DNA of 64,000 bases, from NCBI GenBank assembly GCA_030710605.1, contig CP092868.1:31189363-31253362 (forward strand), read 5' to 3'. Below, piece by piece: positions 1,462 through 63,835 of the stretch. Numbering within the stretch: the stretch's first letter is position 1; each line of letters starts with the position of its first letter. The translations under genes were made by a program, and so were the position numbers. The notes beneath the pieces were generated by a model. That model saw only the letters and a program-made list of their open reading frames with translations, ran no database searches and was not told where the DNA came from. The DNA is from Cordylochernes scorpioides. Its lineage: Eukaryota; Arthropoda; Arachnida; Pseudoscorpiones; Chernetidae.

Positions 1462-1608
<147 letters not shown>

Positions 1609-1925: not shown

Positions 1926-1990
1926 TCTTATGCCTTTAAAAAATTTTGAATTTTGATAACATAAGGCATGCTAGTGCATCAAATTAACAT

Positions 1991-2212: not shown

Positions 2213-2293
2213 TGACAATTAACATAATTTTATTGGCATCTTGTCAATACATGCAAAAGTACACAGTCTACTATTTTAAAGAAGATAATTATC

Positions 2294-4540: not shown

Positions 4541-4718
4541 CAGTAGAACCTCCATGAGAGGACACTCGTGATAGAGGACACCACTCTATAAAGGACAGTT
4601 TTCATTTGCAAAATAACCATTTTTACTATTTAGAAACTCTCTGGTAGGAGGACACCTCTCCCATAAGGACACTTTGGCTCTGAAATTAGGTGTTGTCCTT
4701 TACAGGGAGGTTTTACTG
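4541..4718. mobile_element. Tigger/pogo-type MITE, complete, 178 bp
   Basis: Inverted ends CAGTAGAACCTCC and GGAGGTTTTACTG are flanked on both sides by TA. The interior alternates GAGGACACC-like direct and inverted words and carries no gene. Confidence 0.8.
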
Positions 4719-4731
4719 TATCTTATCTTCT

Positions 4732-4815
4732 TCTTCTTTCTTATCTCCACTCAAATTACACTAAGGTATCAAGCTTGTAAAGCTTGAGACTTTTGATGGT
4801 GTCTGCCGGGTAAGA
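4732..4815 (-). mobile_element. 3' end of a (GAA)n-tailed retroelement
   Basis: Read on the minus strand this is a 3' UTR ending in GAGATAAGAAAGAAGAAGA. The same end is found at 16140-16500, 18153-18476 and 27340-27450, each with the words GACACCATCAA and GATTGAGT(G/A)GAGATAAG. Confidence 0.6.
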
Positions 4816-5715: not shown

Positions 5716-6288
5716 GGACAGCCCCATAGAACAGATTGGTATATTGACAAGAGAGAGATATTTATAACTCAGGTTCCTGGAGTGCAGAGCGCCAACTACT
5801 CAAGATATTGAGAGTATTGTAGCAGAGTATTTATTATATTTTATTTACAGATTATTAATTTTTTATATTTACAGTTAAACCTGTCTATAGCGCCCCATCT
5901 AAATAGCGCCTTCCTCTCTATAGCGCCTAATTTGAAACATTAAAATGTAAACATTTTACATTAAAAGTGACCTGTCTATAGCAGCCTATTTTAGTGAGTC
6001 CCAAGAGGGGGCGCTATAGACATGTTTAACTGTATATTATTCATGTTTTATTACTCTGGAAACTTCCTCTCATTGTATATCTCATAAATGTTGATTTTGT
6101 TTGTGTGCTTGCATTAAATAAATTGCCATGTCATCCTGAAGTTTGTCTTTCCTATGATTTTCTACATGGCCATATAACTCTCTCTTCTTCTATGTAAGAT
6201 CTCATCTAGAAATGATGAAAAAAGAGGTATCGAAGAATGGGATTTGTTTTACAGAAATAGTGTCTCACATAGACACAAGGTAATAAGA
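5716..6288. repeat. Left copy of a 570-bp direct repeat around array 1
   Basis: This block is almost identical to 14666-15234. Both begin GGACAGCCCCATAGAACAG and end in CACATAGACACAAGGTAATA followed by AGA, and both contain the same 161-bp MITE. The Merlin array lies between them. Confidence 0.9.
5872..6032. mobile_element. MITE with CAGTTAAACCTGTCTATAGC ends
   Basis: The 161-bp palindromic element has ends CAGTTAAACCTGTCTATAGC and GCGCTATAGACATGTTTAACTG, bounded by TA. It is present again at 14820-14980 as part of the duplicated block. Confidence 0.85.
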
Positions 6289-6290
6289 GG

Positions 6291-6364
6291 GGGTCAGTGG
6301 AAGGCTGGGTAAACCGTTTGGTTTTCGACCACTAGGACCCGGGTTCGATTCCCGCATTGGGCAC
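6291..6364 (+). pseudogene. tRNA-like fragment (SINE head or tRNA pseudogene)
   Basis: A perfect B-box-like T arm (GGGTTCGATTCCCGC) and an anticodon-arm-like GGTTTTCGACC resembling tRNA-Glu(TTC) precede a T-run. The 5' end does not pair with the 3' acceptor strand (ATTGGGC), so a functional tRNA is unlikely. It abuts the start of the Merlin array. Confidence 0.5.
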
Positions 6365-6489
6365 TTTTTCTGTTAAAATAAAATGCTCCAATGGCCCCCG
6401 ATTCTTGCAAAAGTCCAACCCCACCAGCGGGAAAAAGAAAGATTCTCTTGAATTTTATCTTTCGGAGTATTGGTGGAGAAGGAAGCATT

Positions 6490-7327
6490 ATGTGGAGGAC
6501 ATGCCCGCACTGTGGCAGAGATATGGAACTGAAATCCTATACAAACACAGATCATGTAGTATGACGATGTAGAAGCACATCTAAAAAAATTGGAGTGCAT
6601 AGTATTAGAACAAGTTTGCGATGCGGAACTTGGTTTGAGAAATCGACCTTAAAACTCCACCAAATTATAACCATGACTGCACTGTGGGTGGTAAAGATTG
6701 ATATAAAGACCATTGCAGAGCAGTCTGGGGTATCTGATGACGCAGTAACGCACTGGGTTAACTTCTGCAGGGAGGTTTGCTACCTTCTATATCTGGACGA
6801 CCCTCCGAAAATTGGTGGTAAAGGCAAACAGGTGCAAATAGACGAGAGCCTGTTTGGCCACAATAAGAAAACTAAAAATCACTGTGCCAAAACTGCCGAA
6901 GGACATTGGGTTTTTGGCGGTGTAGACGTGGAAACAAAAGTTTTTTTTCCAGGTGGTCGCCGACCGTAGGGCCCGTACTCTCATTGCGGTTATAAAAAAA
7001 TATGTTTTGCCTGGCACCACCATTATTTCGGATGGGTTTCGATCCTACTACAAGCTGGATCAAGAAGGTTTCGACCACCTTGTGGTTAACCACAAACTAC
7101 ATTTTAAAGACCCGGAAACGGGAGAACATACGAATAATATCGAGGCCACCTGGGGCGCAGCAAAAAAATTACACGTGGGGAAAAGGAAAGTAAAAGATTC
7201 TCTTGAATTTTATCTTTCGGAGTATTGGTGGAGAAGGAAGCATTATGTGGAAGACATGCCCGCACTGTGGCAGAGATATGGAACTGAAATCCTATACAAA
7301 CACAGATCATGTAGTATGGCGATGTAG
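6490..7327 (+). pseudogene. Merlin transposase unit U1
   Basis: The ATG at 6490 opens the zinc-ribbon start, but Trp25 is TGA and the poly-T tract near 6951 is 8 long instead of 10, shifting the frame after VETK. The later KKYVLPG codon is intact (TATG). Array 2 unit B (53720) has the same combination. Confidence 0.85.
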
Positions 7328-8087
7328 AAGCACATCTAAAAAAATTGGAGTGCATAGTATTAGAACAAGTGTGCGATGCGGAACTTGGTTTGAGAAATCG
7401 ACCTTAAAACTCCACCAAATTATAACAATGACTGCACTGTGGGTGGTAAAGATTGATATAAAGACCATTGCAGAGCAGTCTGGGGTATCTGATGACGCAG
7501 TAACGCACTGGGTTAACTTCTGCAGGGAGGTTTGCTACCTTCTATATCTGGACGACCCTCCGAAAATTGGTGGTAAAGGCAAACAGGTGCAAATAGACGA
7601 GAGCCTGTTTGGCCACAATAAGAAAACTAAAAATCACAGTGTGCCAAAACTGCCGAAGGACATTGGGTTTTTGGCGGTGTAGACGTGGTAACAAAAGATT
7701 TTTTTTTTCCAGGTGGTCGCCGACCGTAGGGCCCGTACTCTCATTGCGGTTATAAAAAAATAGGTTTTGCCTGGCACCACCATTATTTCGGATGGGTTTC
7801 GATCCTACTACAAGCTGGATCAAGAAGGTTTCGACCACCTTGTGGTTAACCACAAACTACATTTTAAAGACCCGGAAACGGGAGCACATATGAATAATAT
7901 CGAGGCCACCTGGGGCGCAGCAAAAAAATTACACGTGGGGAAAAGGAAAGTAAAAGATTCTCTTGAATTTTATCTTTCGGAGTATTGGTGGAGAAGGAAG
8001 CATTATGTGGAGGACATGCCCGCACTGTGGCAGAGATATGGAACTGAAATCCTATACAAACACAGATCATGTAGTATGGCGATGTAG
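7245..8087 (+). pseudogene. Merlin transposase unit U2
   Basis: A two-base insertion (CACAGTGTGCC) after NH shifts the frame and ends the protein at DIGFLAV. It also carries Val for Leu in SVRCGTW. Downstream, the tract is too long and codon 172 is TAG. Array 2 unit C (52965) has the same lesions. Confidence 0.85.
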
Positions 8088-8827
8088 AAGCACATCTAAA
8101 AAAATTGGAGTGCATAGTATTAGAACAAGTTTGCGATGCGGAACTTGGTTTGAGAAATCGACCTTAAAACTCCACCAAATTATAACAATGACTGCACTGT
8201 GGGTGGTAAAGATTGATATAAAGACCATTGCAGAGCAGTCTGGGGTATCTGATGACGCAGTAACGCACTGGGTTAACTTCTGCAGGGAGGTTTGCTACCT
8301 TCTATATCTGGACGACCCTCCGAAAATTGGTGGTAAAGGCAAACAGGTGCAAATAGACGTGAGCCTGTTTGGCCACAATAAGAAAACTAAAAATCACTGT
8401 GCCAAAACTGCCGAAGGACATTGGGTTTTTGGCGGTGTAGACGTGGAAACAAAAGATTTTTTTTTCCAGGTGGTCGCCGACCGTAGGGCCCGTACTCTCA
8501 TTGCGGTTATAAAAAAATAGGTTTTGCCTGGCACCACCATTATTTCGGATGGGTTTCGATCCTACTACAAGCTGGATCAAGAAGGTTTCGACCACCTTGT
8601 GGTTAACCACAAACTACATTTTAAAGACCCGAATAATATCGAGGCCACCTGGGGCGCAGCAAAAAAATTACACGTGGGGGAAAAGGAAAGTAAAAGATTC
8701 TCTTGAATTTTATCTTTCGGAGTATTGGTGGAGAAGGAAGCATTATGTGGAGGACATGCCCGCACTGTGGCAGAGATATGGAACTGAAATCCTATACAAA
8801 CACAGATCATGTAGTATGGCGATGTAG
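8005..8827 (+). pseudogene. Merlin transposase unit U3
   Basis: The poly-T tract is in frame, giving VFGGVDV to VIKK, but a TAG stops it after IKK. The first catalytic-region motif reads QIDVSLFG, so the conserved E after the aspartate is Val. An 18-base deletion removes six codons before NNIEATW. Array 2 units A and D share these marks. Confidence 0.85.
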
Positions 8828-9503
8828 AAGCACATCTAAAAAAATTGGAGTGCATAGTATTAGAACAAGTTTGCGATGCGGAACTTGGTTTGAGAAATCG
8901 ACCTTAAAACTCCACCAAATTATAACAATGACTGCACTGTGGGTGGTAAAGATTGATATAAAGACCATTGCAGAGCAGTCTGGGGTATCTGATGACGCAG
9001 TAACGCACTGGGTTAACTTCTGCAGGGAGGTTTGCTACCTTCTATATCTGGACGACCCTCCGAAAATTGGTGGTAAAGGCAAACAGGTGCAAATAGACGA
9101 GAGCCTGTTTGGCCACAATAAGAAAACTAAAAATCACTGTGCCAAAACTGCCTTAGGACATTGGGTTTTTGGCGGTGTAGACGTGGAAACAAAAGATTTT
9201 TTTTTTTTCAGGTTGTCGCCGACCGTAGGGCCCGTACTCTCATTGCGGTTATAAAAAAATAGGTTTTGCCTGGCACCACCATTATTTCGGATGGGTTTCG
9301 ATCCTACTACAAGCTGGATCAAGAAGGTTTCGACCACCTTGTGGTTAACCACAAACTACATTTTAAAGACCCGGAAACGGGAGCACATACGAATAATATC
9401 GAGGCCACCTGGGGCGCAGCAAAAAAATTACACGTGGGGAAAAGGAAAGTAAAAGATTCTCTTGAATTTTATCTTTCGGAGTATTGGTGGAGAAGAAGCA
9501 TTA
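8745..9503 (+). pseudogene. Merlin transposase unit U4
   Basis: It is marked by ALGHWVFGG in place of AEGHWV and by a 12-T tract followed by a single C, which sends the frame into LSPTVGPVL. Codon 172 is TAG. The junction to the next unit has the one-base deletion and therefore reads through. Confidence 0.85.
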
Positions 9504-10343
9504 TGTGGAGGACATGCCCGCACTGTGGCAGAGATATGGAACTGAAATCCTATACAAACACAGATCATGTAGTATGGCGATGTAGAAGCACATCTAAAAA
9601 AATTGGAGTGCATAGTATTAGAACAAGTTTGCGATGCGGAACTTGGTTTGAGAAATCGACCTTAAAACTCCACCAAATTATAACAATGACTGCACTGTGG
9701 GTGGTAAAGATTGATATAAAGACCATTGCAGAGCAGTCTGGGGTATCTGATGACGCAGTAACGCACTGGGTTAACTTCTGCAGGGAGGTTTGCTACCTTC
9801 TATATCTGGACGACCCTCCGAAAATTGGTAGTAAAGGCAAACAGGTGCAAATAGACGAGAGCCTGTTTGGCCACAATAAGAAAACTAAAAATCACTATGC
9901 CAAAACTGCCGAAGGACATTGGGTTTTTGGCGGTGTAGACGTGGTAACAAAAGATTTTTTTTTTCCAGGTGGTCGCCGACCGTAGGGCCCGTACTCTCAT
10001 TGCGGTTATAAAAAAATAGGTTTTGCCTGGCACCACCATTATTTCGGATGGGTTTCGATCCTACTACAAGCTGGATCAAGAAGGTTTCGACCACCTTGTG
10101 GTTAACCACAAACTACATTTTAAAGACCCGGAAACGGGAGCACATACGAATAATATCGAGGCCACCTGGGGCGCAGCAAAAAAATTACACGTGGGGAAAA
10201 GGAAAGTAAAAGATTCTCTTGAATTTTATCTTTCGGAGTATTGGTGGAGAAGGAAGCATTATGTGGAGGACATGCCCGCACTGTGGCAGAGATATGGAAC
10301 TGAAATCCTATACAAACACAGATCATGTAGTATGGCGATGTAG
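9503..10343 (+). pseudogene. Merlin transposase unit U5
   Basis: Read in frame from the end of U4, this copy has GSKGKQ and NHYAKTAE variants and a 10-T tract after GA that shifts it to PGGRRP-stop. The second half (SDGFRSYY to SEYWWRR) is open. Confidence 0.85.
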
Positions 10344-11101
10344 AAGCACATCTAAAAAAATTGGAGTGCATAGTATTAGAACAAGTTTGCGATGCGGAAC
10401 TTGGTTTGAGAAATCGACCTTAAAACTCCACCAAATTATAACAATGACTGCACTGTGGGTGGTAAAGATTGATATAAAGACCATTGCAGAGCAGTCTGGG
10501 GTATCTGATGACGCAGTAACGCACTGGGTTAACTTCTGCAGGGAGGTTTGCTACCTTCTATATCTGGACGACCCTCCGAAAATTGGTAGTAAAGGCAAAC
10601 AGGTGCAAATAGACGAGAGCCTGTTTGGCCACAATAAGAAAACTAAAAATCACTGTGCCAAAACTGCCGAAGGACATTGGGTTTTTGGCGGTGTAGACGT
10701 GGTAACAAAAGATTTTTTTTTTCCAGGTGGTCGCCGACCGTAGGGCCCGTACTCTCATTGCGGTTATAAAAAAATAGGTTTTGCCTGGCACCACCATTAT
10801 TTCGGATGGGTTTCGATCCTACTACAAGCTGGATCAAGAAGGTTTCGACCACCTTGTGGTTAACCACAAACTACATTTTAAAGACCCGGAAACGGGAGCA
10901 CATACGAATAATATCGAGGCCACCTGGGGCGCAGCAAAAAAATTACACGTGGGGAAAAGGAAAGTAAAAGATTCTCTTGAATTTTATCTTTCGGAGTATT
11001 GGTGGAGAAGGAAGCATTATGTGGAGGACATGCCCGCACTGTGGCAGAGATATGGAACTGAAATCCTATACAAACACAGATCATGTAGTATGGCGATGTA
11101 G
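10261..11101 (+). pseudogene. Merlin transposase unit U6
   Basis: Nearly identical to U7, with GSKGKQ, VVTKD and a 10-T frameshift, then TAG at codon 172. U5 to U7 look like the most recent local amplification. Confidence 0.85.
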
Positions 11102-11859
11102 AAGCACATCTAAAAAAATTGGAGTGCATAGTATTAGAACAAGTTTGCGATGCGGAACTTGGTTTGAGAAATCGACCTTAAAACTCCACCAAATTATAAC
11201 AATGACTGCACTGTGGGTGGTAAAGATTGATATAAAGACCATTGCAGAGCAGTCTGGGGTATCTGATGACGCAGTAACGCACTGGGTTAACTTCTGCAGG
11301 GAGGTTTGCTACCTTCTATATCTGGACGACCCTCCGAAAATTGGTAGTAAAGGCAAACAGGTGCAAATAGACGAGAGCCTGTTTGGCCACAATAAGAAAA
11401 CTAAAAATCACTGTGCCAAAACTGCCGAAGGACATTGGGTTTTTGGCGGTGTAGACGTGGTAACAAAAGATTTTTTTTTTCCAGGTGGTCGCCGACCGTA
11501 GGGCCCGTACTCTCATTGCGGTTATAAAAAAATAGGTTTTGCCTGGCACCACCATTATTTCGGATGGGTTTCGATCCTACTACAAGCTGGATCAAGAAGG
11601 TTTCGACCACCTTGTGGTTAACCACAAACTACATTTTAAAGACCCGGAAACGGGAGCACATACGAATAATATCGAGGCCACCTGGGGCGCAGCAAAAAAA
11701 TTACACGTGGGGAAAAGGAAAGTAAAAGATTCTCTTGAATTTTATCTTTCGGAGTATTGGTGGAGAAGGAAGCATTATGTGGAGGACATGCCCGCACTGT
11801 GGCAGAGATATGGAACTGAAATCCTATACAAACACAGATCATGTAGTATGGCGATGTAG
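11019..11859 (+). pseudogene. Merlin transposase unit U7
   Basis: Same lesions as U6: 10-T tract after GA and TAG at codon 172. The C-terminal half is open. Confidence 0.85.
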
Positions 11860-12599
11860 AAGCACATCTAAAAAAATTGGAGTGCATAGTATTAGAACAA
11901 GTTTGCGATGCGGAACTTGGTTTGAGAAATCGACCTTAAAACTCCACCAAATTATAACAATGACTGCACTGTGGGTGGTAAAGATTGATATAAAGACCAT
12001 TGCAGAGCAGTCTGGGGTATCTGATGACGCAGTAACGCACTGGGTTAACTTCTGCAGGGAGGTTTGCTACCTTCTATATCTGGACGACCCTCCGAAAATT
12101 GGTGGTAAAGGCAAACAGGTGCAAATAGACGAGAGCCTGTTTGGCCACAATAAGAAAACTAAAAATCACTGTGCCAAAACTGCCGAAGGACATTGGGTTT
12201 TTGGCGGTGTAGACGTGGAAACAAAAGATTTTTTTTTCCAGGTGGTCGCCGACCGTAGGGCCCGTACTCTCATTGCGGTTATAAAAAAATAGGTTTTGCC
12301 TGGCACCACCATTATTTCGGATGGGTTTCGATCCTACTACAAGCTGGATCAAGAAGGTTTCGACCACCTTGTGGTTAACCACAAACTACATTTTAAAGAC
12401 CCGAATAATATCGAGGCCACCTGGGGCGCAGCAAAAAAATTACACGTGGGGGAAAAGGAAAGTAAAAGATTCTCTTGAATTTTATCTTTCGGAGTATTGG
12501 TGGAGAAGGAAGCATTATGTGGAGGACATGCCCGCACTGTGGCAGAGATATGGAACTGAAATCCTATACAAACACAGATCATGTAGTATGGCGATGTAG
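11777..12599 (+). pseudogene. Merlin transposase unit U8
   Basis: Like U3 it has the in-frame 9-T tract, the TAG after IKK and the 18-base deletion before NNIEATW. Unlike U3 it keeps QIDESLFG. U8-U9-U10 repeats the U3-U4-U5 pattern five units later. Confidence 0.85.
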
Positions 12600-13274
12600 A
12601 AGCACATCTAAAAAAATTGGAGTGCATAGTATTAGAACAAGTTTGCGATGCGGAACTTGGTTTGAGAAATCGACCTTAAAACTCCACCAAATTATAACAA
12701 TGACTGCACTGTGGGTGGTAAAGATTGATATAAAGACCATTGCAGAGCAGTCTGGGGTATCTGATGACGCAGTAACGCACTGGGTTAACTTCTGCAGGGA
12801 GGTTTGCTACCTTCTATATCTGGACGACCCTCCGAAAATTGGTGGTAAAGGCAAACAGGTGCAAATAGACGAGAGCCTGTTTGGCCACAATAAGAAAACT
12901 AAAAATCACTGTGCCAAAACTGCCTTAGGACATTGGGTTTTTGGCGGTGTAGACGTGGTAACAAAAGATTTTTTTTTTCCAGGTTGTCGCCGACCGTAGG
13001 GCCCGTACTCTCATTGCGGTTATAAAAAAATAGGTTTTGCCTGGCACCACCATTATTTCGGATGGGTTTCGATCCTACTACAAGCTGGATCAAGAAGGTT
13101 TCGACCACCTTGTGGTTAACCACAAACTACATTTTAAAGACCCGGAAACGGGAGCACATACAAATAATATCGAGGCCACCTGGGGCGCAGCAAAAAAATT
13201 ACACGTGGGGAAAAGGAAAGTAAAAGATTCTCTTGAATTTTATCTTTCGGAGTATTGGTGGAGAAGAAGCATTA
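12517..13274 (+). pseudogene. Merlin transposase unit U9
   Basis: It carries the ALGHWVFGG mark of U4 with VVTKD, a 10-T frameshift giving PGCRRP, and TAG at codon 172. Its junction to U10 has the one-base deletion, so the 3' half of U9 is continuous with U10 for 358 codons. Confidence 0.85.
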
Positions 13275-14113
13275 TGTGGAGGACATGCCCGCACTGTGGC
13301 AGAGATATGGAACTGAAATCCTATACAAACACAGATCATGTAGTATGGCGATGTAGAAGCACATCTAAAAAAATTGGAGTGCATAGTATTAGAACAAGTT
13401 TGCGATGCGGAACTTGGTTTGAGAAATCGACCTTAAAACTCCACCAAATTATAACAATGACTGCACTGTGGGTGGTAAAGATTGATATAAAGACCATTGC
13501 AGAGCAGTCTGGGGTATCTGATGACGCAGTAACGCACTGGGTTAACTTCTGCAGGGAGGTTTGCTACCTTCTATATCTGGACGACCCTCCGAAAATTGGT
13601 GGTAAAGGCAAACAGGTGCAAATAGACGAGAGCCTGTTTGGCCACAATAAGAAAACTAAAAATCACTGTGCCAAAACTGCCGAAGGACATTGGGTTTTTG
13701 GCGGTGTAGACGTGGAAACAAAAGTTTTTTTTTTCCAGGTGGTCGCCGACCGTAGGGCCCGTACTCTCATTGCGGTTATAAAAAAATATGTTTTGCCTGG
13801 CACCACCATTATTTCGGATGGGTTTCGATCCTACTACAAGCTGGATCAAGAAGGTTTCGACCACCTTGTGGTTAACCACAAACTACATTTTAAAGACCCG
13901 GAAACGGGAGCACATACGAATAATATCGAGGCCACCTGGGGCGCAGCAAAAAAATTACACGTGGGGAAAAGGAAAGTAAAAGATTCTCTTGAATTTTATC
14001 TTTCGGAGTATTGGTGGAGAAGGAAGCATTATGTGGAGGACATGCCCGCACTGTGGCAGAGATATGGAACTGAAATCCTATACAAACACAGATCATGTAG
14101 TATGGCGATGTAG
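13274..14113 (+). CDS. Merlin (IS1016-like) DDE transposase, intact unit U10
   Basis: This is the only full-length copy in array 1, at 279 codons. The protein opens with a zinc-ribbon-like segment (C5, C8, C27, C45), then a helical DNA-binding region around residues 60-100 (TIAEQSGVSDDAVTHWV). The ISXO2/IS1595-type DDE core follows, with D118 in QIDESLFG, D182 in ISDGFRSYY and E219 in NNIEATW, 36 residues separating the second D from E. Such enzymes cut at terminal inverted repeats and paste the element, making 8-9 bp duplications. I chose ATG 13274 because it starts the zinc ribbon; the open frame continues upstream through U9. The last 29 residues, after WWRRKHYV, are not native: they are the next unit's start read out of frame. 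A native ending is seen in array 2 at 48352-48430. Whether it is expressed is unknown. Confidence 0.85.
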   Translation: MWRTCPHCGRDMELKSYTNTDHVVWRCRSTSKKIGVHSIRTSLRCGTWFEKSTLKLHQIITMTALWVVKIDIKTIAEQSGVSDDAVTHWVNFCREVCYLLYLDDPPKIGGKGKQVQIDESLFGHNKKTKNHCAKTAEGHWVFGGVDVETKVFFFQVVADRRARTLIAVIKKYVLPGTTIISDGFRSYYKLDQEGFDHLVVNHKLHFKDPETGAHTNNIEATWGAAKKLHVGKRKVKDSLEFYLSEYWWRRKHYVEDMPALWQRYGTEILYKHRSCSMAM

Positions 14114-14668
14114 AAGCACATCTAAAAAAATTGGAGTGCATAGTATTAGAACAAGTTTGCGATGCGGAACTTGGTTTGAGAAATCGACCTTAAAACTCCA
14201 CCAAATTATAACAATGACTGCACTGTGGGTGGTAAAGATTGATATAAAGACCATTGCAGAGCAGTCTGGGGTATCTGATGACGCAGTAACGCACTGGGTT
14301 AACTTCTGCAGGGAGGTTTGCTACCTTCTATATCTGGACGACCCTCCGAAAATTGGTGGTAAAGGCAAACAGGTGCAAATAGACGAGAGCCTGTTTGGCC
14401 ACAATAAGAAAACTAAAAATCACTGTGCCAAAACTGCCGAAGGACATTGGGTTTTTGGCGGTGTAGACGTGGAAACAAAAGTTTTTTTTTTCCAGGTGGT
14501 CGCCGACCGTAGGGCCCGTACTCTCATTGCGGTTATAAAAAAATATGTTTTGCCTGGCACCACCATTATTTCGAAATGGGGTTTCGATCCTACTACAAGC
14601 TGGATCAAGAAGGTTTCGACCACCTTGTGGTTAACCACAAACTACATTTTAAAGACCCGGAAACGGGA
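14031..14668 (+). pseudogene. Merlin transposase unit U11, 3' truncated
   Basis: The frame is open through QIDES, VFGGVDV and KKYVLPGTTIIS. A two-base insertion near 14573 (CGAAATGGGG) then shifts the frame just before the second catalytic aspartate. The copy stops at GAAACGGGACA where it joins the direct repeat, so E219 is missing. Confidence 0.85.
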
Positions 14669-15234
14669 CAGCCCCATAGAACAGATTGGTATATTGACGA
14701 GAGATATTTATAACTCAGGTTCCTGGAACGCAGAGCGTCAACTACCCGGGGATATTGACAGTATTGTAGCAAAGTATTTATTCTATTTTATTTACAGATT
14801 ATTAATTTTTTTATATTTACAGTTAAACCTGTCTATAGCGCCCCATCTAAATAGCGCCTTCCTCTCTATAGCGCCCAATTTGAAACATTAAAATGTAAAC
14901 ATTTTACATTAAAAGTGACCTGTCTATAGCAGCCTATTTTGGTGAGTCCCTAGAGGGGGCGCTATAGACATGTTTAACTGTATATTATTCATGTTTTGTT
15001 ACTCTGGAAACTTCCTCATTGTTTATCTCATGAATGTTGATTTTGTTTGTGTGCTTGCATTAAATAAATTGCCATGTCATCCTGAAGTTTGTCTTTCCTA
15101 TCATTATCTACATGACCATATAACTCTCTCTTCTTCTATGTAAGATCTTATCTAGAAAGGATGAAAAAAGAGGTATCGAAGAATGGGATTTGTTCTACAG
15201 AAATAGTGTCTCACATAGACACAAGGTAATAAGA
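14666..15234. repeat. Right copy of the 570-bp direct repeat
   Basis: Partner of 5716-6288. The join to the array is within GGGACA, a short homology shared by both sides. The oxidase-like exon next to the left copy is absent here. Confidence 0.9.
14820..14980. mobile_element. MITE with CAGTTAAACCTGTCTATAGC ends, second copy
   Basis: Same 161-bp element as 5872-6032, carried by the duplicated block. Confidence 0.85.
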
Positions 15235-15833
15235 ACAAATTCAATTGGATTTGGTCTTATTACCTTGTGTTTACAATCTACAATATGGCTGCAGCCTTGC
15301 AGAAAATTGACTTAGACCCAGAGCAGCAGCTTTACACAACCAAGATAGTGGATATTGCTGCTGCTGTGATGGAGATGTATGGAGACATCTGAGGCTCTTC
15401 ATTGGACATGACAACAACAACAATACAGTATACCCACCCAAGATAGTGGACATTGCTGCTGCTGTGATGGAGATGCATGGAGACATCTGAGGCTCTTCAT
15501 TGGACATAACAACAACAACAATACAGTATACACACCCAAGATAGTGGACATTGCTGCTGCTGTGATGGAGATGTATGGAGACATCTGAGGCTCTTCATTG
15601 GACACAACAACAATACAGTATACACACCCAAGATAGTGGACATTGCTGCTGCTGTGATGGAGATGCATGGAGACATCTGAGGCTCTTCATTGGACATGAC
15701 AACAACAACAATACAGTATACACACCCAAGATAGTGGACATTGCTGTGATAGAGATACATGGAGACATCTGAGGCTCTTCGTTGGACATGACAACAACAA
15801 TCTACAATCCAAATTGTGCCTTATCTGTCTCAC
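15219..15833. repeat. FB1 remnant split by a minisatellite insertion
   Basis: The left piece (15219-15294) holds the ACAAGGTAATAAGA and GGTCTTATTACCTTGTG arms and the right piece (15797-15833) the CCAAATTGTGCCTTATC tail. The insert between them is flanked by ACAATCTACAAT on both sides. Confidence 0.65.
15295..15796 (+). repeat. 98-bp minisatellite, five copies, behind a mini-ORF
   Basis: Copies beginning AAGATAGTGGA lie near 15342, 15440, 15538, 15630 and 15728 (periods 98, 98, 92, 98) and each ends in an (AAC)n run. The insert opens with ATG GCT GCA GCC at 15295, which reads as a 35-codon peptide beginning MAAALQKIDLDPEQQ. The repeated part encodes KIVDIAAAVMEMYGDI-stop in each unit. The flanking 12-bp direct repeat suggests a retroposed segment later amplified. 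I do not recognise the peptide. Confidence 0.75.
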
Positions 15834-31308: not shown

Positions 31309-31309
31309 A

Positions 31310-45360: not shown

Positions 45361-48351
45361 CACTTATTCAGATCGAAGGTTCAAATTTTTGCTAAATAAA
45401 TTTGAAATTAAATAAAATTTGTAATTGTAAATGATGAAGTTGAAAATTAAAACATTTACTTAAATTAGATGTTAAAATTCTTGCTCAACACAGTTTAAAT
45501 AAAGTTTTCTTATATCTGCCACTTTTTGCCACTTTCTTATATCTGCCACTTTCAAATTTTTGCTAAATAAATTTGAAACTATTTAAAATTTGTAAAATAA
45601 TAATTAATTAATTAATTAATTTTAAACTAATAATTTATTTAACACTATCAACATTTATCAATAGTATGACATAACCTATAAACTCAGTTTCTCAACTTTT
45701 GTGTCAATCTAACAATTAATCAATCAATCATAGTTTACGATAATGAAATATCAGTGTACAATTATTTACCTTTATTGTTGTAGTTGTTGTAAATGACGAA
45801 TCTAAGCACTCCACATTTTCACTACAGACACAGCTGACGATACTTTAACCACACGTGTGAACTTGTATTATGACGCTTTCTTGTTTTTCCAACGCCAAGA
45901 ACGTTCGAGAAAGACAAAGACAGAGACAAGCATGCGCCGATTCAATGCGCCTAATTCTCTAGCGCTGCGCGCGCAGCTGCGCGCGCAGCACTCTCGTTCG
46001 ATTCGTAACATACGGGCGTTACACTTTTTCATAAGTGACTCCCAGCCGCAACCTAATTTAAGACGTTGTCACGTCAAAAAACAAACAATTTCATTATCTA
46101 AAATGAGATCCAATAAAAATAATTAAAATAAATACATTCTATCGTGAGTGGAAAAGAGGATATCATAAAGGATAACATTATGACAAAGAAATAATTTGTG
46201 TTGAAGTTTAAGACTCTCAATCAAGGAAAAGTTTTTTTATTTAATACAGTATAAAGCAAGATGTTAGAATAGCAATAAAGGCATAAAAGAAAAAAAATTA
46301 ACTATAAGAAGGAAGAATTTGCAAACATGCTTCTTTCAGCGCCTCCATGAGTGTTGATTTGTCAGTCACTCCTTCCAAACTCTTTGAATCCTTTCCAACA
46401 TTTGATTTTTTTTGGATAACTAATTAATACTTTATCTTGAAGATAGACGTTGTCTGGCCGGCATTCAAATTTCTGTAAAAAAATTGTACTAAATTCGAAA
46501 AATCGCGTGAGAACGCCCTTGCAATCTCAGAACAATTTTGAACGCCTTGCCAAATGTTTTATTTTTATTTATTTCAAACGTTGAGAAAAATAAAATTTCA
46601 ACTGGCCGAAAAGTCTATTTTTTTTTTTACAGAAAAAATAATTAAAATTTTGATAAATTAATTAACAATTTGATAGCTACTTTTAATTATTTATAATTAC
46701 TGGAACATTAACACGTTATGAACAGCCGAAGCTGAACAAGTTCATCAAATGTTTTCATTGTAAGTGCATGTCTTCTTAGTAAGTAAAAAAATATATTAGT
46801 AAATATAAATAGAGTCGCGGCGTCTTGAGCTTTTTTTTTTTTTGTAATTTGTCGAAATCAAGACTTCTGTGATAATGAAAACAGAGCAGTACTACTGAAT
46901 GAGGATAATCCAAGAATTTTGAAGCCTTCTTTAATCGTGGTATTTGGAATCCTAAAAAAAAAAAAAAAAAAACATTCGCAATTAAAAAAAAGAAACAAAT
47001 ATATTATTCATAGAAAAAATGGTCAGATGAATTTTTATTTTCTAATAATCTGTTTTGAGAGCTCTTATCTAAAAAAAAGTTAAATAATTTGATCGTTTCC
47101 AAAAGTAAAAGATAGTTTGCTGGATAAAGCTGGGCTTTGCTTTCCATCAACTATATAAAAGAAACGCATTGCCAGTAAATTTATTTGTGTAAAATTTTAA
47201 CGATAGATGGCAATTAAATTTAATTTACTAATATATACATATAGTTTGTGTTGAACCGAAATATAATTTTTCTAATTGAAATTTTTAATGATGCACGTTT
47301 GAATTAAAGGTAAGTTAAATTTTTTATTTGCTTTATGAAAATATGTTTAAAATATTTGTTTACATTCCTTATTGAAGCGAAGTGTTCAAAATATTTAGAT
47401 AAAATATTCCAGCGAAAACATGTTGGGACTCAAAGGTAAGTTTTTATTATTTCTTTTATATACGCTTTCTTGAATATTTAGTAAAACACACATTTTAAGA
47501 GAGTTTTCGACATTTGGCCCAAAACCGAGACTAAGTCTCTCATTGGTCGTGACGTCAGTGTGACGCTCAATGTAAACAAAGGATATGATTGATTCTTTTT
47601 CACGTCACTACCTCGGGTATTGTCTGATTGGCTGGATGGTTCCAACTCATCGATATAGAATTTTTTAAAAATAAAAATAATTGAAATACCTTTTGTTACT
47701 TTAATATTTATAAAGGCCGTTTTTTTTCCTATTTAATATTATCTCCAGAATGTATTTTTAATTTTTATATCTCCAGAATTTTTTTCAAATTTTTATATTG
47801 GTGTAATGTTCTCAAACGTAAACAAAGAAATAGGGACAAAGTTAGGGAGACACCGTAACATACAATTAAAAATAAAAAAGTACTTATATGCTTACGTAAG
47901 CTAAAGCATACAATAAAATTAAATATACTTGTTTTAATTTTAATAATTTTAATAAATGCACGTGTTTTAATTTTAATATATTTTTATATATGCACACAAT
48001 GACAAAAATATTTAAGATTGCAAATGCATACAAACGTGTTTTAAATTTTATTTAATAAAAATCTAAGCTGACAAATGCTTACGTAAGCTAAAGCATACAA
48101 TAATATTAATTAAACGTGTTTTAATTTTAATATATTTTTATATATTAAAAGCCTAGGCATACAATTATACAATAAATACAATTATATGAACATAATCGTT
48201 AAAAAAAATAACAGATAAATATAAATGACAGATACATTTAAAAAAAAATTTATTATTCAGTGGACCGAATTTTCATTTATTCTTTTCAACTGAAAAAAAA
48301 AAAAAAAGGTTATTCGAAGAGTTAATATAGACAAAATAACTACTCACCTAA
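45361..48351. other. AT-rich region, no gene assigned
   Basis: A CpG-rich island sits at 45920-46000, including GCGCGCAGCTGCGCGCGC. Poly-A/T runs are frequent. A candidate first exon (ATG TTG GGA CTC AAA followed by GGTAAGT) occurs at about 47420 but nothing supports it downstream. A CRE-like site with CCAAT boxes is at 47542-47631. Confidence 0.4.
47542..47631 (-). promoter_or_regulatory. Possible promoter: CRE and inverted CCAAT boxes
   Basis: TGACGTCA at 47550-47557, a related CACGTCAC at 47601 and two ATTGG (CCAAT on the minus strand) at 47542 and 47627 lie within 90 bp. Such clusters occur in animal promoters, but no transcript or coding exon is identified next to it. Confidence 0.2.
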
Positions 48352-49194
48352 CTAGCCAGGGTATATCTTTCTTATATCCTTGAAAAATTGTTTAATGAGC
48401 AGTTGTTGGCTGTTTTTATTTGTTCTTGGATCCACATAATGCTTCCTTCTCCACCAATACTCTGAAAGATAAAATTCAAGAGAATCTTTTACTTTCCTTT
48501 TCCCCACGTGTAATTTTTTTGCTGCGCCCCAGGTGGCCTCGATATTATTCGTATGTGCTCCCGTTTCCGGGTCTTTAAAATGTAGTTTGTGGTTAACCAC
48601 AAGGTGGTCGAAACCTTCTTGATCCAGCTTGTAGTAGGATCGAAACCCATCCGAAATAATGGTGGTGCCAGGCAAAACCTATTTTTTTATAACCGCAATG
48701 AGAGTACGGGCCCTACGGTCGGCGACCACCTGGAAAAAAAAATCTTTTGTTTCCACGTCTACACCGCCAAAAACCCAATGTCCTTCGGCAGTTTTGGCAC
48801 AGTGATTTTTAGTTTTCTTATTGTGGCCAAACAGGCTCTCGTCTATTTGCACCTGTTTGCCTTTACTACCAATTTTCGGAGGGTCGTCCAGATATAGAAG
48901 GTAGCAAACCTCCCTGCAGAAGTTAACCCAGTGCGTTACTGCGTCATCAGATACCCCAGACTGCTCTGCAATGGTCTTTATATCAATCTTTACCACCCAC
49001 AGTGCAGTCATTGTTATAATTTGGTGGAGTTTTAAGGTCGATTTCTCAAACCAAGTTCCGCATCGCAAACTTGTTCTAATACTATGCACTCCAATTTTTT
49101 TAGATGTGCTTCTACATCGCCATACTACATGATCTGTGTTTGTATAGGATTTCAGTTCCATATCTCTGCCACAGTGCGGGCATGTCCTCCACAT
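48352..49194 (-). pseudogene. Merlin unit H with native C-terminus, one stop
   Basis: This terminal copy is open from MWRTCPHC through VFGGVDV to VIKK, where TAG replaces Tyr172, then continues open to the end. After KHYV it does not enter another unit but reads DPRTNKNSQQLLIKQFFKDI and ends in RKIYPG-stop. A hydrophobic/aromatic ending of this kind (F-x-x-x-I-x-x-x-Y) fits complete Merlin transposases, so this is probably the original 3' end of the gene. Apart from the TAG, and the GSKGKQ variant, it looks functional. Confidence 0.8.
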
Positions 49195-49951
49195 AATGCT
49201 TCCTTCTCCACCAATACTCCGAAAGATAAAATTCAAGAGAATCTTTTACTTTCCTTTTCCCCACGTGTAATTTTTTTGCTGCGCCCCAGGTGGCCTCGAT
49301 ATTATTCGTATGTGCTCCCGTTTCCGGGTCTTTAAAATGTAGTTTGTGGTTAACCACAAGGTGGTCGAAACCTTCTTGATCCAGCTTGTAGTAGGATCGA
49401 AACCCATCCGAAATAATGGTGGTGCCAGGCAAAACATATTTTTTTATAACCGCAATGAGAGTACGGGCCCTACGGTCGGCGACCACCTGGAAAAAAAAAA
49501 CTTTTGTTTCCACGTCTACACCGCCAAAAACCCAATGTCCTTCGGCAGTTTTGGCACAGTGATTTTTAGTTTTCTTATTGTGGCCAAACAGGCTCTCGTC
49601 TATTTGCACCTGTTTGCCTTTACCACCAATTTTCGGAGGGTCGTCCAGATATAGAAGGTAGCAAACCTCCCTGCAGAAGTTAACCCAGTGCGTTACTGCG
49701 TCATCAGATACCCCAGACTGCTCTGCAATGGTCTTTATATCAATCTTTACCACCCACAGTGCAGTCATTGTTATAATTTGGTGGAGTTTTAAGGTCGATT
49801 TCTCAAACCAAGTTCCGCATCGCAAACTTGTTCTAATACTATGCACTCCAATTTTTTTAGATGTGCTTCTACATCGCCATACTACATGATCTGTGTTTGT
49901 ATAGGATTTCAGTTCCATATCTCTGCCACAGTGCGGGCATGTCCTCCACAT
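49112..49951 (-). CDS. Merlin DDE transposase, intact unit G
   Basis: A second adjacent full copy, overlapping the tail of unit F by 83 bases in another frame because the unit is 757 bp. All three catalytic residues and the zinc-ribbon cysteines are present. The ATG at 49951 is preferred over the upstream TTG because the zinc ribbon starts there. The tail after WWRRKHYV is again unit-junction sequence. Confidence 0.85.
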   Translation of the reverse strand: MWRTCPHCGRDMELKSYTNTDHVVWRCRSTSKKIGVHSIRTSLRCGTWFEKSTLKLHQIITMTALWVVKIDIKTIAEQSGVSDDAVTHWVNFCREVCYLLYLDDPPKIGGKGKQVQIDESLFGHNKKTKNHCAKTAEGHWVFGGVDVETKVFFFQVVADRRARTLIAVIKKYVLPGTTIISDGFRSYYKLDQEGFDHLVVNHKLHFKDPETGAHTNNIEATWGAAKKLHVGKRKVKDSLEFYLSEYWWRRKHYVEDMPALWQRYGTEILYKHRSCSMAM

Positions 49952-50708
49952 AATGCTTCCTTCTCCACCAATACTCCGAAAGATAAAATTCAAGAGAATC
50001 TTTTACTTTCCTTTTCCCCACGTGTAATTTTTTTGCTGCGCCCCAGGTGGCCTCGATATTATTCGTATGTGCTCCCGTTTCCGGGTCTTTAAAATGTAGT
50101 TTGTGGTTAACCACAAGGTGGTCGAAACCTTCTTGATCCAGCTTGTAGTAGGATCGAAACCCATCCGAAATAATGGTGGTGCCAGGCAAAACATATTTTT
50201 TTATAACCGCAATGAGAGTACGGGCCCTACGGTCGGCGACCACCTGGAAAAAAAAAACTTTTGTTTCCACGTCTACACCGCCAAAAACCCAATGTCCTTC
50301 GGCAGTTTTGGCACAGTGATTTTTAGTTTTCTTATTGTGGCCAAACAGGCTCTCGTCTATTTGCACCTGTTTGCCTTTACCACCAATTTTCGGAGGGTCG
50401 TCCAGATATAGAAGGTAGCAAACCTCCCTGCAGAAGTTAACCCAGTGCGTTACTGCGTCATCAGATACCCCAGACTGCTCTGCAATGGTCTTTATATCAA
50501 TCTTTACCACCCACAGTGCAGTCATTGTTATAATTTGGTGGAGTTTTAAGGTCGATTTCTCAAACCAAGTTCCGCATCGCAAACTTGTTCTAATACTATG
50601 CACTCCAATTTTTTTAGATGTGCTTCTACATCGCCATACTACATGATCTGTGTTTGTATAGGATTTCAGTTCCATATCTCTGCCACAGTGCGGGCATGTC
50701 CTCCACAT
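49869..50708 (-). CDS. Merlin DDE transposase, intact unit F
   Basis: A 279-codon open frame with the complete zinc ribbon and D118, D182 and E219, matching U10 of array 1. The open frame continues upstream into the end of unit E (358 codons in total, from 50945), so unit E's SEYWWRR is fused to this copy's MWRTC. The 10-T tract and the Tyr codon that kill most units are both in the functional state. As in U10 the last 29 residues are out-of-frame sequence of the following unit. Nothing indicates a promoter directly upstream. Confidence 0.85.
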   Translation of the reverse strand: MWRTCPHCGRDMELKSYTNTDHVVWRCRSTSKKIGVHSIRTSLRCGTWFEKSTLKLHQIITMTALWVVKIDIKTIAEQSGVSDDAVTHWVNFCREVCYLLYLDDPPKIGGKGKQVQIDESLFGHNKKTKNHCAKTAEGHWVFGGVDVETKVFFFQVVADRRARTLIAVIKKYVLPGTTIISDGFRSYYKLDQEGFDHLVVNHKLHFKDPETGAHTNNIEATWGAAKKLHVGKRKVKDSLEFYLSEYWWRRKHYVEDMPALWQRYGTEILYKHRSCSMAM

Positions 50709-51465
50709 AATGCTTCTTCTCCACCAATACTCCGAAAGATAAAATTCAAGAGAATCTTTTACTTTCCTTTTCCCCACGTGTAATTTTTTTGCTGCGCCCC
50801 AGGTGGCCTCGATATTATTCGTATGTGCTCCCGTTTCCGGGTCTTTAAAATGTAGTTTGTGGTTAACCACAAGGTGGTCGAAACCTTCTTGATCCAGCTT
50901 GTAGTAGGATCGAAACCCATCCGAAATAATGGTGGTGCCAGGCAAAACCTATTTTTTTATAACCGCAATGAGAGTACGGGCCCTACGGTCGGCGACAACC
51001 TGAAAAAAAAAAATCTTTTGTTTCCACGTCTACACCGCCAAAAACCCAATGTCCTAAGGCAGTTTTGGCACAGTGATTTTTAGTTTTCTTATTGTGGCCA
51101 AACAGGCTCTCGTCTATTTGCACCTGTTTGCCTTTACCACCAATTTTCGGAGGGTCGTCCAGATATAGAAGGTAGCAAACCTCCCTGCAGAAGTTAACCC
51201 AGTGCGTTACTGCGTCATCAGATACCCCAGACTGCTCTGCAATGGTCTTTATATCAATCTTTACCACCCACAGTGCAGTCATTGTTATAATTTGGTGGAG
51301 TTTTAAGGTCGATTTCTCAAACCAAGTTCCGCATCGCAAACTTGTTCTAATACTATGCACTCCAATTTTTTTAGATGTGCTTCTACATCGCCATACTACA
51401 TGATCTGTGTTTGTATAGGATTTCAGTTCCATATCTCTGCCACAGTGCGGGCATGTCCTCCACAT
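50708..51465 (-). pseudogene. Merlin unit E (U4/U9-like)
   Basis: ALGHWVFGG and a shifted T tract followed by GCRRP. Its junction to unit F has the one-base deletion that restores the frame. Confidence 0.85.
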
Positions 51466-52205
51466 AATGCTTCCTTCTCCACCAATACTCCGAAAGATAA
51501 AATTCAAGAGAATCTTTTACTTTCCTTTTCCCCCACGTGTAATTTTTTTGCTGCGCCCCAGGTGGCCTCGATATTATTCGGGTCTTTAAAATGTAGTTTG
51601 TGGTTAACCACAAGGTGGTCGAAACCTTCTTGATCCAGCTTGTAGTAGGATCGAAACCCATCCGAAATAATGGTGGTGCCAGGCAAAACCTATTTTTTTA
51701 TAACCGCAATGAGAGTACGGGCCCTACGGTCGGCGACCACCTGGAAAAAAAAATCTTTTGTTTCCACGTCTACACCGCCAAAAACCCAATGTCCTTCGGC
51801 AGTTTTGGCACAGTGATTTTTAGTTTTCTTATTGTGGCCAAACAGGCTCACGTCTATTTGCACCTGTTTGCCTTTACCACCAATTTTCGGAGGGTCGTCC
51901 AGATATAGAAGGTAGCAAACCTCCCTGCAGAAGTTAACCCAGTGCGTTACTGCGTCATCAGATACCCCAGACTGCTCTGCAATGGTCTTTATATCAATCT
52001 TTACCACCCACAGTGCAGTCATTGTTATAATTTGGTGGAGTTTTAAGGTCGATTTCTCAAACCAAGTTCCGCATCGCAAACTTGTTCTAATACTATGCAC
52101 TCCAATTTTTTTAGATGTGCTTCTACATCGCCATACTACATGATCTGTGTTTGTATAGGATTTCAGTTCCATATCTCTGCCACAGTGCGGGCATGTCCTC
52201 CACAT
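51383..52205 (-). pseudogene. Merlin unit D (U3-like)
   Basis: QIDVSLFG, TAG after IKK and the 18-base deletion, as in U3. Confidence 0.85.
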
Positions 52206-52965
52206 AATGCTTCCTTCTCCACCAATACTCCGAAAGATAAAATTCAAGAGAATCTTTTACTTTCCTTTTCCCCACGTGTAATTTTTTTGCTGCGCCCCAG
52301 GTGGCCTCGATATTATTCGTATGTGCTCCCGTTTCCGGGTCTTTAAAATGTAGTTTGTGGTTAACCACAAGGTGGTCGAAACCTTCTTGATCCAGCTTGT
52401 AGTAGGATCGAAACCCATCCGAAATAATGGTGGTGCCAGGCAAAACCTATTTTTTTATAACCGCAATGAGAGTACGGGCCCTACGGTCGGCGACCACCTG
52501 GAAAAAAAAAATCTTTTGTTACCACGTCTACACCGCCAAAAACCCAATGTCCTTCGGCAGTTTTGGCACACTGTGATTTTTAGTTTTCTTATTGTGGCCA
52601 AACAGGCTCTCGTCTATTTGCACCTGTTTGCCTTTACCACCAATTTTCGGAGGGTCGTCCAGATATAGAAGGTAGCAAACCTCCCTGCAGAAGTTAACCC
52701 AGTGCGTTACTGCGTCATCAGATACCCCAGACTGCTCTGCAATGGTCTTTATATCAATCTTTACCACCCACAGTGCAGTCATTGTTATAATTTGGTGGAG
52801 TTTTAAGGTCGATTTCTCAAACCAAGTTCCGCATCGCACACTTGTTCTAATACTATGCACTCCAATTTTTTTAGATGTGCTTCTACATCGCCATACTACA
52901 TGATCTGTGTTTGTATAGGATTTCAGTTCCATATCTCTGCCACAGTGCGGGCATGTCTTCCACAT
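52123..52965 (-). pseudogene. Merlin unit C (U2-like)
   Basis: Carries the two-base insertion ending in DIGFLAV, the SVRCGTW change and MWKTCPHC, as in U2. Confidence 0.85.
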
Positions 52966-53720
52966 AATGCTTCCTTCTCCACCAATACTCCGAAAGATAA
53001 AATTCAAGAGAATCTTTTACTTTCCTTTTCCCCACGTGTAATTTTTTTGCTGCGCCCCAGGTGGCCTCGATATTATTCGTATGTGCTCCCGTTTCCGGGT
53101 CTTTAAAATGTAGTTTGTGGTTAACCACAAGGTGGTCGAAACCTTCTTGATCCAGCTTGTAGTAGGATCGAAACCCATCCGAAATAATGGTGGTGCCAGG
53201 CAAAACATATTTTTTTATAACCGCAATGAGAGTACGGGCCCTACGGTCGGCGACCACCTGGAAAAAAAACTTTTGTTTCCACGTCTACACCGCCAAAAAC
53301 CCAATGTCCTTCGGCAGTTTTGGCACAGTGATTTTTAGTTTTCTTATTGTGGCCAAACAGGCTCTCGTCTATTTGCACCTGTTTGCCTTTACCACCAATT
53401 TTCGGAGGGTCGTCCAGATATAGAAGGTAGCAAACCTCCCTGCAGAAGTTAACCCAGTGCGTTACTGCGTCATCAGATACCCCAGACTGCTCTGCAATGG
53501 TCTTTATATCAATCTTTACCACCCACAGTGCAGTCATGGTTATAATTTGGTGGAGTTTTAAGGTCGATTTCTCAAACCAAGTACCGCATCGCAAACTTGT
53601 TCTAATACTATGCACTCCAATTTTTTTAGATGTGCTTCTACATCGTCATACTACATGATCTGTGTTTGTATAGGATTTCAGTTCCATATCTCTGCCACAG
53701 TGCGGGCATGTCCTCCACAT
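52883..53720 (-). pseudogene. Merlin unit B (U1-like)
   Basis: TGA at Trp25 and an 8-T tract giving VFFPGGRRP, exactly as in U1. The C-terminal half is open with the Tyr codon. Confidence 0.85.
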
Positions 53721-54460
53721 AATGCTTCCTTCTCCACCAATACTCCGAAAGATAAAATTCAAGAGAATCTTTTACTTTCCTTTTCCCCCACGTGTAATTT
53801 TTTTGCTGCGCCCCAGGTGGCCTCGATATTATTCGGGTCTTTAAAATGTAGTTTGTGGTTAACCACAAGGTGGTCGAAACCTTCTTGATCCAGCTTGTAG
53901 TAGGATCGAAACCCATCCGAAATAATGGTGGTGCCAGGCAAAACCTATTTTTTTATAACCGCAATGAGAGTACGGGCCCTACGGTCTGCGACCACCTGGA
54001 AAAAAAAATCTTTTGTTTCCACGTCTACACCGCCAAAAACCCAATGTCCTTCGGCAGTTTTGGCACAGTGATTTTTAGTTTTCTTATTGTGGCCAAACAG
54101 GCTCACGTCTATTTGCACCTGTTTGCCTTTACCACCAATTTTCGGAGGGTCGTCCAGATATAGAAGGTAGCAAACCTCCCTGCAGAAGTTAACCCAGTGC
54201 GTTACTGCGTCATCAGATACCCCAGACTGCTCTGCAATGGTCTTTATATCAATCTTTACCACCCACAGTGCAGTCATTGTTATAATTTGGTGGAGTTTTA
54301 AGGTCGATTTCTCAAACCAAGTTCCGCATCGCAAACTTGTTCTAATACTATGCACTCCAATTTTTTTAGATGTGCTTCTACATCGTCATACTACATGATC
54401 TGTGTTTGTATAGGATTTCAGTTCCATATCTCTGCCACAGTGCGGGCATGTCCTCCACAT
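53638..54460 (-). pseudogene. Merlin unit A
   Basis: Trp25 is TGA, the core has QIDVSLFG, codon 172 is TAG and the 18-base deletion precedes NNIEATW. It resembles U3 but sits upstream of the U1-like unit, a position not represented in array 1. Confidence 0.8.
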
Positions 54461-54557
54461 AATGCTTCCTTCTCCACCAATACTCCGAAAGATAAAATTC
54501 AAGAGAATCTTTTACTTTCCTTTTCCCCACGTGTAATTTTTTTGCTGCGCCCCAGGT

Positions 54558-54809
54558 GGCCTCGATATTATTCGTATGTGCTCCCGTTTCCGGGTCTTTA
54601 AAATGTAGTTTGTGGTTAACCACAAGGTGGTCGAAACCTTCTTGATCCAGCTTGTAGTAGGATCGAAACCCATCCGAAATAATGGTGGTGCCAGGCAAAA
54701 CATATTTTTTTATAACCGCAATGAGAGTACGGGCCCTACGGTCGGCGACCACCTGGAAAAAAAAAATCTTTTGTTTCCACGTCTACACCGCCAAAAACCC
54801 AATGTCCTT
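54558..54809 (-). pseudogene. Merlin unit Z, C-terminal half only
   Basis: It begins at GHWVFGGVDVETK and has the TATG (Tyr) codon, but its 10-T tract after GA shifts the frame. The 5' break joins unrelated DNA at TCCTTTCAGATAAATTG. Confidence 0.8.
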
Positions 54810-58179: not shown

Positions 58180-58375
58180 GTTTGACAATGAAGAATGCTC
58201 GAAGTCCATTTCTTTCTTGTCGAGGCAGCTTCATCATTGTCCACCAGCTTTCTATTTGGTTCTGTGGGTGAACTTTGTTGAGGCCCCAGGAGTGGCCTCT
58301 ACACATACTACACCATCTGTGTTGTTATAGGCCTTCAGCTCCATTTGTCTGCCACATTCTGGGCATGTCCTTTCA
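58180..58375 (-). pseudogene. Second Merlin family, internally deleted
   Basis: The minus strand begins TCPECGRQMELKAYNNTDGV, a diverged version of the zinc ribbon of the arrays. In another frame it continues NKVHPQNQIESWWTMMKLP, equivalent to the NNIEATW segment holding the catalytic glutamate. The two parts are joined directly, so both aspartates and about 150 residues are missing. It shows that Merlin elements have been in this genome long enough to diverge, independent of the arrays. Confidence 0.75.
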
Positions 58376-63830: not shown

Positions 63831-63835
63831 GGTAC

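Follow-up and report, generated by a model that had tools for sequence, protein, structure and literature searches.

The stretch of DNA analysed here (the window) comprises 64,000 nucleotides of the pseudoscorpion Cordylochernes scorpioides, positions 31189363-31253362 of the contig CP092868.1 (C6 below) in the assembly GCA_030710605.1, which holds 2.62 Gb in 24 contigs. It contains two tandem arrays whose repeat unit, about 757 bp long and arranged head to tail, is derived from a Merlin (IS1595-type) transposase. Together with three further arrays outside the window they very probably make up a local, young and mostly non-coding satellite, whose source would be an internal piece of a single Merlin transposase gene. 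The arrays and their surroundings are made up of the following features, in window positions.

5716..6288, + strand: left flank of array 1, one copy of a segment duplicated locally, with an exon-like stretch in it
6289..6429, + strand: first 141 bp of a dispersed element resembling a short interspersed nuclear element (SINE), truncated at the left junction of the array
6430..14668, + strand: array 1 (A1), consisting of 57 bp, 10 complete units and 630 bp, with 11 junctions
9266-9985 and 13037-14113, + strand: frames of A1 in which a C-terminal part is fused in frame to the next N-terminal part, through a 1-bp loss in units of type d
13274..14113, + strand: 279-codon open frame of a type f unit of A1, with D118, D182 and E219 in the presumed DDE positions
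14666..15234, + strand: right flank of A1, a second copy of the segment with an exon-like part and a GGA overlap at the array
47499..48351, - strand: 3' part of the Merlin element from which the unit comes, with a dispersed terminal stretch at about 47499-47844
48352..48430, - strand: native C-terminus of the transposase, PRTNKNSQQLLIKQFFKDIRKIYPG and then a stop, in frame with the last unit of array 2 and absent from the units
48431..54809, - strand: array 2 (A2), inverted with respect to A1, consisting of 354 bp and 8 complete units, with 8 junctions
49112..49951, - strand: 279-codon open frame of a type f unit of A2
49869..50708, - strand: 279-codon open frame of another type f unit of A2
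58304..58371, - strand: diverged N-terminal remnant of Merlin, single copy

The units of A1 measure 755-760 bp, except for two of 740 bp. The BLAST match begins at 6438, yet array-like sequence is present from about 6430, directly after the truncated SINE-like element that ends at 6429. A1, which was not listed by the tandem-repeat finder (longest period 500), thus lies and starts where a preliminary description of this DNA had put it. That description gave the extent of A1 correctly and missed the inverted A2; three more arrays lie beyond the window. A1 and A2 are 34 kb apart in opposite orientation, and in a self-comparison of the window they are 97-99.7% identical over kilobases, which rules out chance as the source of the arrays.

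The sequence of the tandem junction was searched for throughout the assembly with up to 2 mismatches. All 43 matches (42 exact and one with a single mismatch) fall within 170 kb of one chromosome, C6:31120062-31289467; there were no matches elsewhere in the assembly, and a reversed control pattern gave none at the same threshold. The matches define five arrays with 8 (A3), 2 (A4), 11 (A1), 8 (A2) and 14 (A5) junctions, four of which have the same orientation. An insertion of about 336 bp interrupts two units that lie beyond the window; it sits at unit position ~210, away from the junction. The five arrays sum to 34,701 bp and the largest measures 11.4 kb, so that 34.7 kb within 170 kb does not amount to the large blocks of satellite DNA. 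Homogeneous head-to-tail arrays with turnover of units, visible as blocks and mosaics, are a property of satellites that they do have, and incipient satellite is the better name for them.

The origin of the unit from a transposase, which had been proposed from the letters of the window, is supported by two profiles. The unit protein matches the DDE_Tnp_IS1595 domain (PF12762) with 65.7 bits against a cut-off of 27 (E=6e-18) and NF033547 with 87.2 bits against a cut-off of 75 (E=1.4e-24). When the unit protein is aligned with three IS1595 transposases of plasmids, chosen from 33 records found and 25-30% identical to it, D118, D182 and E219 are invariant, and the contexts of the motifs lead us to read these columns as the putative DDE catalytic residues. 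The N-terminal zinc ribbon gave sub-threshold matches only (E 0.018 and 0.049). No solved structure was matched at E<=1, and a search of viral contigs returned a single pattern match and no relative.

Each unit had been described as almost exactly one coding sequence, which does not hold at either end. Past the last unit of A2 the frame reads KHYVD-PRTNKNSQQLLIKQFFKDIRKIYPG-stop and so continues for about 26 codons beyond the end of the unit. Nearly the same C-terminal end is found in three loci elsewhere: L009 (contig C15) and L010 (C23), both about 95% identical to the arrays over the unit, and the partial single copy L014. On the N-terminal side, ...TCTTCGCAGGTGAAAGG... lies upstream of AGGACATGCCC in L009 and L010, but in the arrays its place is taken by ...AAGCATTATGTGG, which belongs to the C-terminus; L009 and L010 are native on either side of the junction point. 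Since the unit has neither the last ~26 codons of the gene nor the native N-terminal start, it is an internal fragment; because the native sequence upstream and downstream differs from that of the arrays, the junction joins two points inside the gene, with an overlap of about 1 bp. The start codon of each copy does lie inside the preceding copy, as had been noted, but it is not the native start: the ATG of the open frames arises from a TAT-GTG pair of the C-terminus that the junction has placed beside the N-terminal region. To judge from the junction, a break would have joined the C-terminal region (...TTATGTGGA) to the N-terminal region (AGGACATGCCC...), and a single end-joining event would have left a direct repeat of ~757 bp, that is, a tandem dimer, inside the element.

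Reverse transcription of a back-spliced circular RNA was considered as another source of the junction. The TCTTCGCAGGTGAAAGG stretch of L009 and L010 looks like a splice acceptor, and splice-like sites can be read by eye in these loci (TTAG|GTGAGT and TTCGCAG|GTG). On the C-terminal side the junction falls inside exon sequence (GTGGA|TCC), and on the N-terminal side a few bases inside the presumed exon. A circular-RNA origin is rejected since the junction is not at the splice-like sites.

The coding state of the units bears on what was amplified. Among the 42 complete units of the five arrays, including the two with the ~336-bp insertion, six are open throughout: unit 10 of A1, units 6 and 7 of A2, unit 2 of A3, and units 11 and 13 of A5. 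At one site, KK(Y/stop), the codon is TAG in 29 of the 47 scored array pieces (the 48th, of 57 bp, is too short to reach it). In 18 single-copy loci that were fetched, the same codon is TAT in 15 and TAG in none, with no pattern match in 3; the TAG is therefore derived and has spread with the array. With so few open units and so widespread a derived stop, amplification for coding is improbable, coding is probably not what was amplified, and the term coding satellite, used previously, has to be given up.

That the arrays are a selected, multicopy coding transposase, domesticated or active in trans and kept for its protein, would agree with the six open units, with the intact D118, D182 and E219 of the unit examined and with the NCBIfam match above the cut-off. 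It is nevertheless barely credible, as the other 36 units are broken, the derived stop has spread, and both the native N-terminal start and the last ~26 codons are gone. Nor are the open units independent: five belong to one haplotype cluster (type f) and the sixth to type t. A5 also has two more units of type f, both of them broken. The analysis gave no sign that the transposase encoded by the units is being maintained; what has been amplified is the repeat as DNA.

Since the open units are 757 bp long, the reading frame is displaced by one base with every unit, and in the window the open frames stop 78 bp into the following unit. Read-through products from 756-bp junctions had been suggested as possible. 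There is no unit of this length in the window, and in each of the four found elsewhere the unit frame is stopped at codon 166. Two in-frame fusions do exist by another route: in units of type d one base is lost near the junction and the C-terminal part is fused in frame to the next unit, as in the two frames of A1 listed above. The same 1-bp loss occurs in A2 at 50725 (- strand).

The order of the units records how the arrays have grown. Complete units were grouped into types by clustering at <=2 edits with homopolymers masked and end pieces excluded.

A1: a b c d e e e c d f (followed by a partial unit)
A2: c a b c d f f g
A3: h f [1094] i j k l m
A4: n o
A5: p q p q f r [1096] s p q f f t u

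The best register of five units between A1 and A2 differs by 7 edits, a value reached by 2 of 2000 shuffled orders. The two arrays share 4 of 7 neighbours (94 of 20000 shuffles), and the dimer pq occurs three times in A5 (67 of 20000 shuffles). At 6 of 66 informative site pairs in the complete units of A1 and A2 all four combinations occur, a pattern that suggests exchange or conversion among units. These permutation and site-pair tests are supportive, though not overwhelming. They agree with amplification by unequal exchange, one of the two routes suggested at the outset; unequal exchange together with gene conversion between units would have produced the shared blocks, the dimer repeats and the mosaic units.

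The flanks show in what setting this took place. A2, A3, A4, A5 and L014 all run into a common 3' flank, present at no fewer than five loci among 40 of 586 candidates scored. On the 5' side there are two kinds of shared flank. One precedes A2 and A4 (99.4% identity across 2484 bp), each of which opens with a partial unit of 354 bp; the other precedes A3 and A5 (99.9% across 1242 bp), and in it a diverged piece of Merlin is fused to the array. Because flanks are common to several arrays, the arrays lie in duplicated segments that differ in copy number, and the four with the native 3' flank have 2, 8, 8 and 14 junctions. Local segmental duplication has thus copied the array along one chromosome, after which the copy numbers diverged.

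The other route suggested at the outset is a rolling circle: a circularised 757-bp Merlin fragment would have been copied as a concatemer and reintegrated as a multimer, as proposed for the Bari1 clusters of Drosophila (PMC8834629). One junction sequence throughout agrees with it, and so does A1, which lacks Merlin flanks in the manner of an inserted concatemer. A2-A5, on the contrary, continue into the native C-terminus and the 3' region of the element and therefore seem to have grown inside it; further, the unit variants lie in blocks and dimers, and the unit order of A1 is shared with A2. A rolling circle as the origin of the arrays is accordingly rather unlikely, while a circle can still have been the maker of the first dimer. 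False expansion or duplication of a single copy by the assembly is highly improbable: the five arrays differ in length and in unit types and have three kinds of 5' boundary, the longest (11.4 kb) is within the reach of long reads, and at least one contig measures 224 Mb. On the side of an artefact are the great similarity of the units, array copy numbers known from the assembly alone, and the 100% identity of segment copies, which could include haplotype duplication.

A1 is placed differently from the other arrays. The segment on its left (5716-6288), whose exon-like stretch presumably resembles an amine oxidase (it has no Pfam match), is present in at least 7 copies of >=95% identity among 40 of 5824 candidates scored, all of them at C6 31.087-31.326 Mb. 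A3, A4 and A5 start some 13-15 kb past the start of a copy of this segment and A2 about 34 kb past one. The SINE-like element next to A1 has a longer copy in locus L038, which measures about 310 bp, has an A tail and is bordered on either side by GGTAATAAGA. The right flank of A1 is identical to C6:31265475-31266500 (100% over 1026 bp). The two flanks are not each other's closest relatives, and the left one shares its SINE-like insertion with L038.

The 575-bp direct repeat that these flanks form round A1 was considered as a long target-site duplication and rejected. It is not the footprint of an insertion, since there are at least seven copies of the segment, the right flank is identical to the copy at 31265 kb and not to the left flank, and the left one has the SINE-like insertion of L038. 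A1 looks instead like a rearrangement junction of duplicated segments that has captured an inverted block of A2-like units. A later rearrangement may thus have set A1, inverted and devoid of Merlin flanks, between the SINE-bearing copy of the segment and a second copy.

The opposite orientation of A1 and A2 would also suit a role of the arrays in making double-stranded or small RNA that silences Merlin, and a similar, unproven suggestion has been made in the literature on the Bari1 clusters. Against it, four of the five arrays share one orientation; we regard the proposal as very unlikely. A locus used by the host, in which inverted arrays would feed small-RNA silencing of Merlin and intact units would be kept for a transposase or a matching transcript, is hardly more than conceivable.

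The ends of the source element were sought by terminal inverted repeats (TIRs) and target-site duplications (TSDs). Merlin TIRs are described as 24-462 bp long with a terminal GG, and the TSD as 8-9 bp (PMC8101967). No TIR is present at the junctions between units, where the unit lengths leave no room, so that the arrays do consist of head-to-tail units without TIRs between them, as was first thought. Scanning for 24-bp GG-ended TIRs with an 8-9 bp TSD, without a positive control, gave none in the window and none in three shuffles. A Merlin TSD was matched neither exactly in the whole window nor, with up to one mismatch allowed, in two regions surrounding the arrays, no TIR pair of a Merlin element was found in the window, and the inverted repeats listed there are AT-rich. 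The ends of A1 fall in the SINE-like element and in another copy of the segment. On the 3' side of A2 the stretch at ~47499-47844 is dispersed: copies of it follow several other Merlin genes, and it is also present, in inverted orientation, upstream of L009. Judged by this distribution, it is a candidate 3' TIR. Round the single copies L009 and L010 a complete TIR pair with TSD was not resolved.

Several points weigh against growth of the arrays from a Merlin gene fragment as set out above. Of the two ends of the source element, just the 3' one was narrowed down, and neither TIRs nor a TSD were established for it. The lengths of the arrays are those given by the assembly, the permutation tests are of modest strength, and the cut at <=2 edits for unit types is arbitrary. 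Six units, three of them in the window, are intact and stop-free, which selection could also explain. A1 and A2 are only 0.35% apart in their best register while the 575-bp flanks of A1 are 4-5% apart; this mismatch in the order of ages would fit an origin of the flanks from two different segment copies. Matches of 51 and 54 bp (80-83%) between the flanks of A1 and the far 3' flank of A2 are taken as dispersed repeats.

Other Merlin copies occur widely in the genome, in a list of relatives that is a lower bound (39 of 68 candidates scored). One locus on contig C1 (L011) is 99% identical to the unit over 531 bp, and more diverged copies are found mainly on C22, C13, C1, C6, C12 and C8. Diverged single copies are clustered at 57.13-57.69 Mb of C22 and 40.2-41.45 Mb of C13, tens to hundreds of kilobases apart. 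Five copies (L017, L018 and L027 on C22, L020 on C8, L026 on C6) have an insertion of about 200 bp at unit position 421. L018 and L026 (C6:70.19 Mb) are 98.8% identical over 4.7 kb round the Merlin copy, and because this stretch is longer than the gene the mobile unit may exceed the expected size. At the 5' edge of A3 and of A5 an ORF1-like frame, gag-like by eye, abuts the diverged piece of Merlin; a frame similar to it by eye precedes the remnant at window position 58304.

L012, 9183-8660, - strand: ORF1-like frame
A5, 2556-3079 in the joined loci L035 and L029: ORF1-like frame

Further features lie elsewhere in the window. Direct repeats at 29739-31309 and 38919-40490 (+ strand), 1576 bp long, 98.99% identical and with starts 9.2 kb apart, may be the long terminal repeats of one element, about 10.7 kb in length. 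A 397-codon frame at 24823-26016 (+) matches the reverse transcriptase domain RVT_1, and the repeats beside it, at 23.6-24.8 kb and 26.0-26.7 kb, are 97-98% identical and in part inverted. Overlapping frames at 62600-63822 (-) have RNase H matches, one below the Pfam cut-off, and are likely to be the end of a retrotransposon without long terminal repeats. Minisatellites with periods of 98 bp and 104 bp and about 5 copies each lie at 15333-15800 and 20889-21434. A 350-codon open frame at 56453-57505 (-), partly within the flank shared with A4 (99.4%), has no Pfam match at E<=0.01. Neither the Rfam scan nor the tRNA scan of the whole window gave a match. Positions 1-4793 are 99.77% identical to C6:31318207-31323000, a further sign of recent local segmental duplication, and 63323-64000 are identical (100%) to C6:31075194-31075871.

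Satellites derived from transposons are well known (PMC6947457, PMC9659126, PMC4079207, PMC10702118). The closest precedent for the arrays is given by the clusters of Bari1, a Tc1-mariner element, in Drosophila melanogaster (h39 and X). About 80 head-to-tail copies, each minus the first two nucleotides, are described there, with a second, smaller cluster that has the same junction; a rolling-circle-like origin is proposed and the function is left unresolved (PMC8834629). Common to both cases are a head-to-tail array of a DNA transposon, a restricted place and one defined junction in every copy. The units of Bari1, however, are near-complete elements, whereas the unit of C. scorpioides, from another superfamily, is an internal coding fragment that has neither terminus and is devoid of the 3' region, the ~26 C-terminal codons and the native upstream sequence. 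The present arrays also differ in being five and small, in one region of a chromosome and inside a segmental duplication.

In the TIR-220 satellite of Tetris in Drosophila virilis, too, repeats internal to a transposon have been enlarged to kilobase-size arrays, but these come from tandem repeats in foldback TIRs and not from transposase coding sequence (PMC4079207). Merlin elements themselves may carry internal tandem repeats, which have been suggested to be proto-satellites. Those described are short (163 bp in 3-4 units; 12 bp) and none is the transposase frame (PMC8101967). No tandem array of a Merlin transposase frame turned up in a search of literature made up largely of non-subscription papers.

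A Merlin array would count as a second case beside Bari1, from another superfamily. The arrays illustrate how mobile DNA turns into tandem repeats, and they do so at an early stage of the transition from transposon to satellite, in which the native end of the element, the founding junction, the single-copy relatives and five arrays can all be read in one genome.

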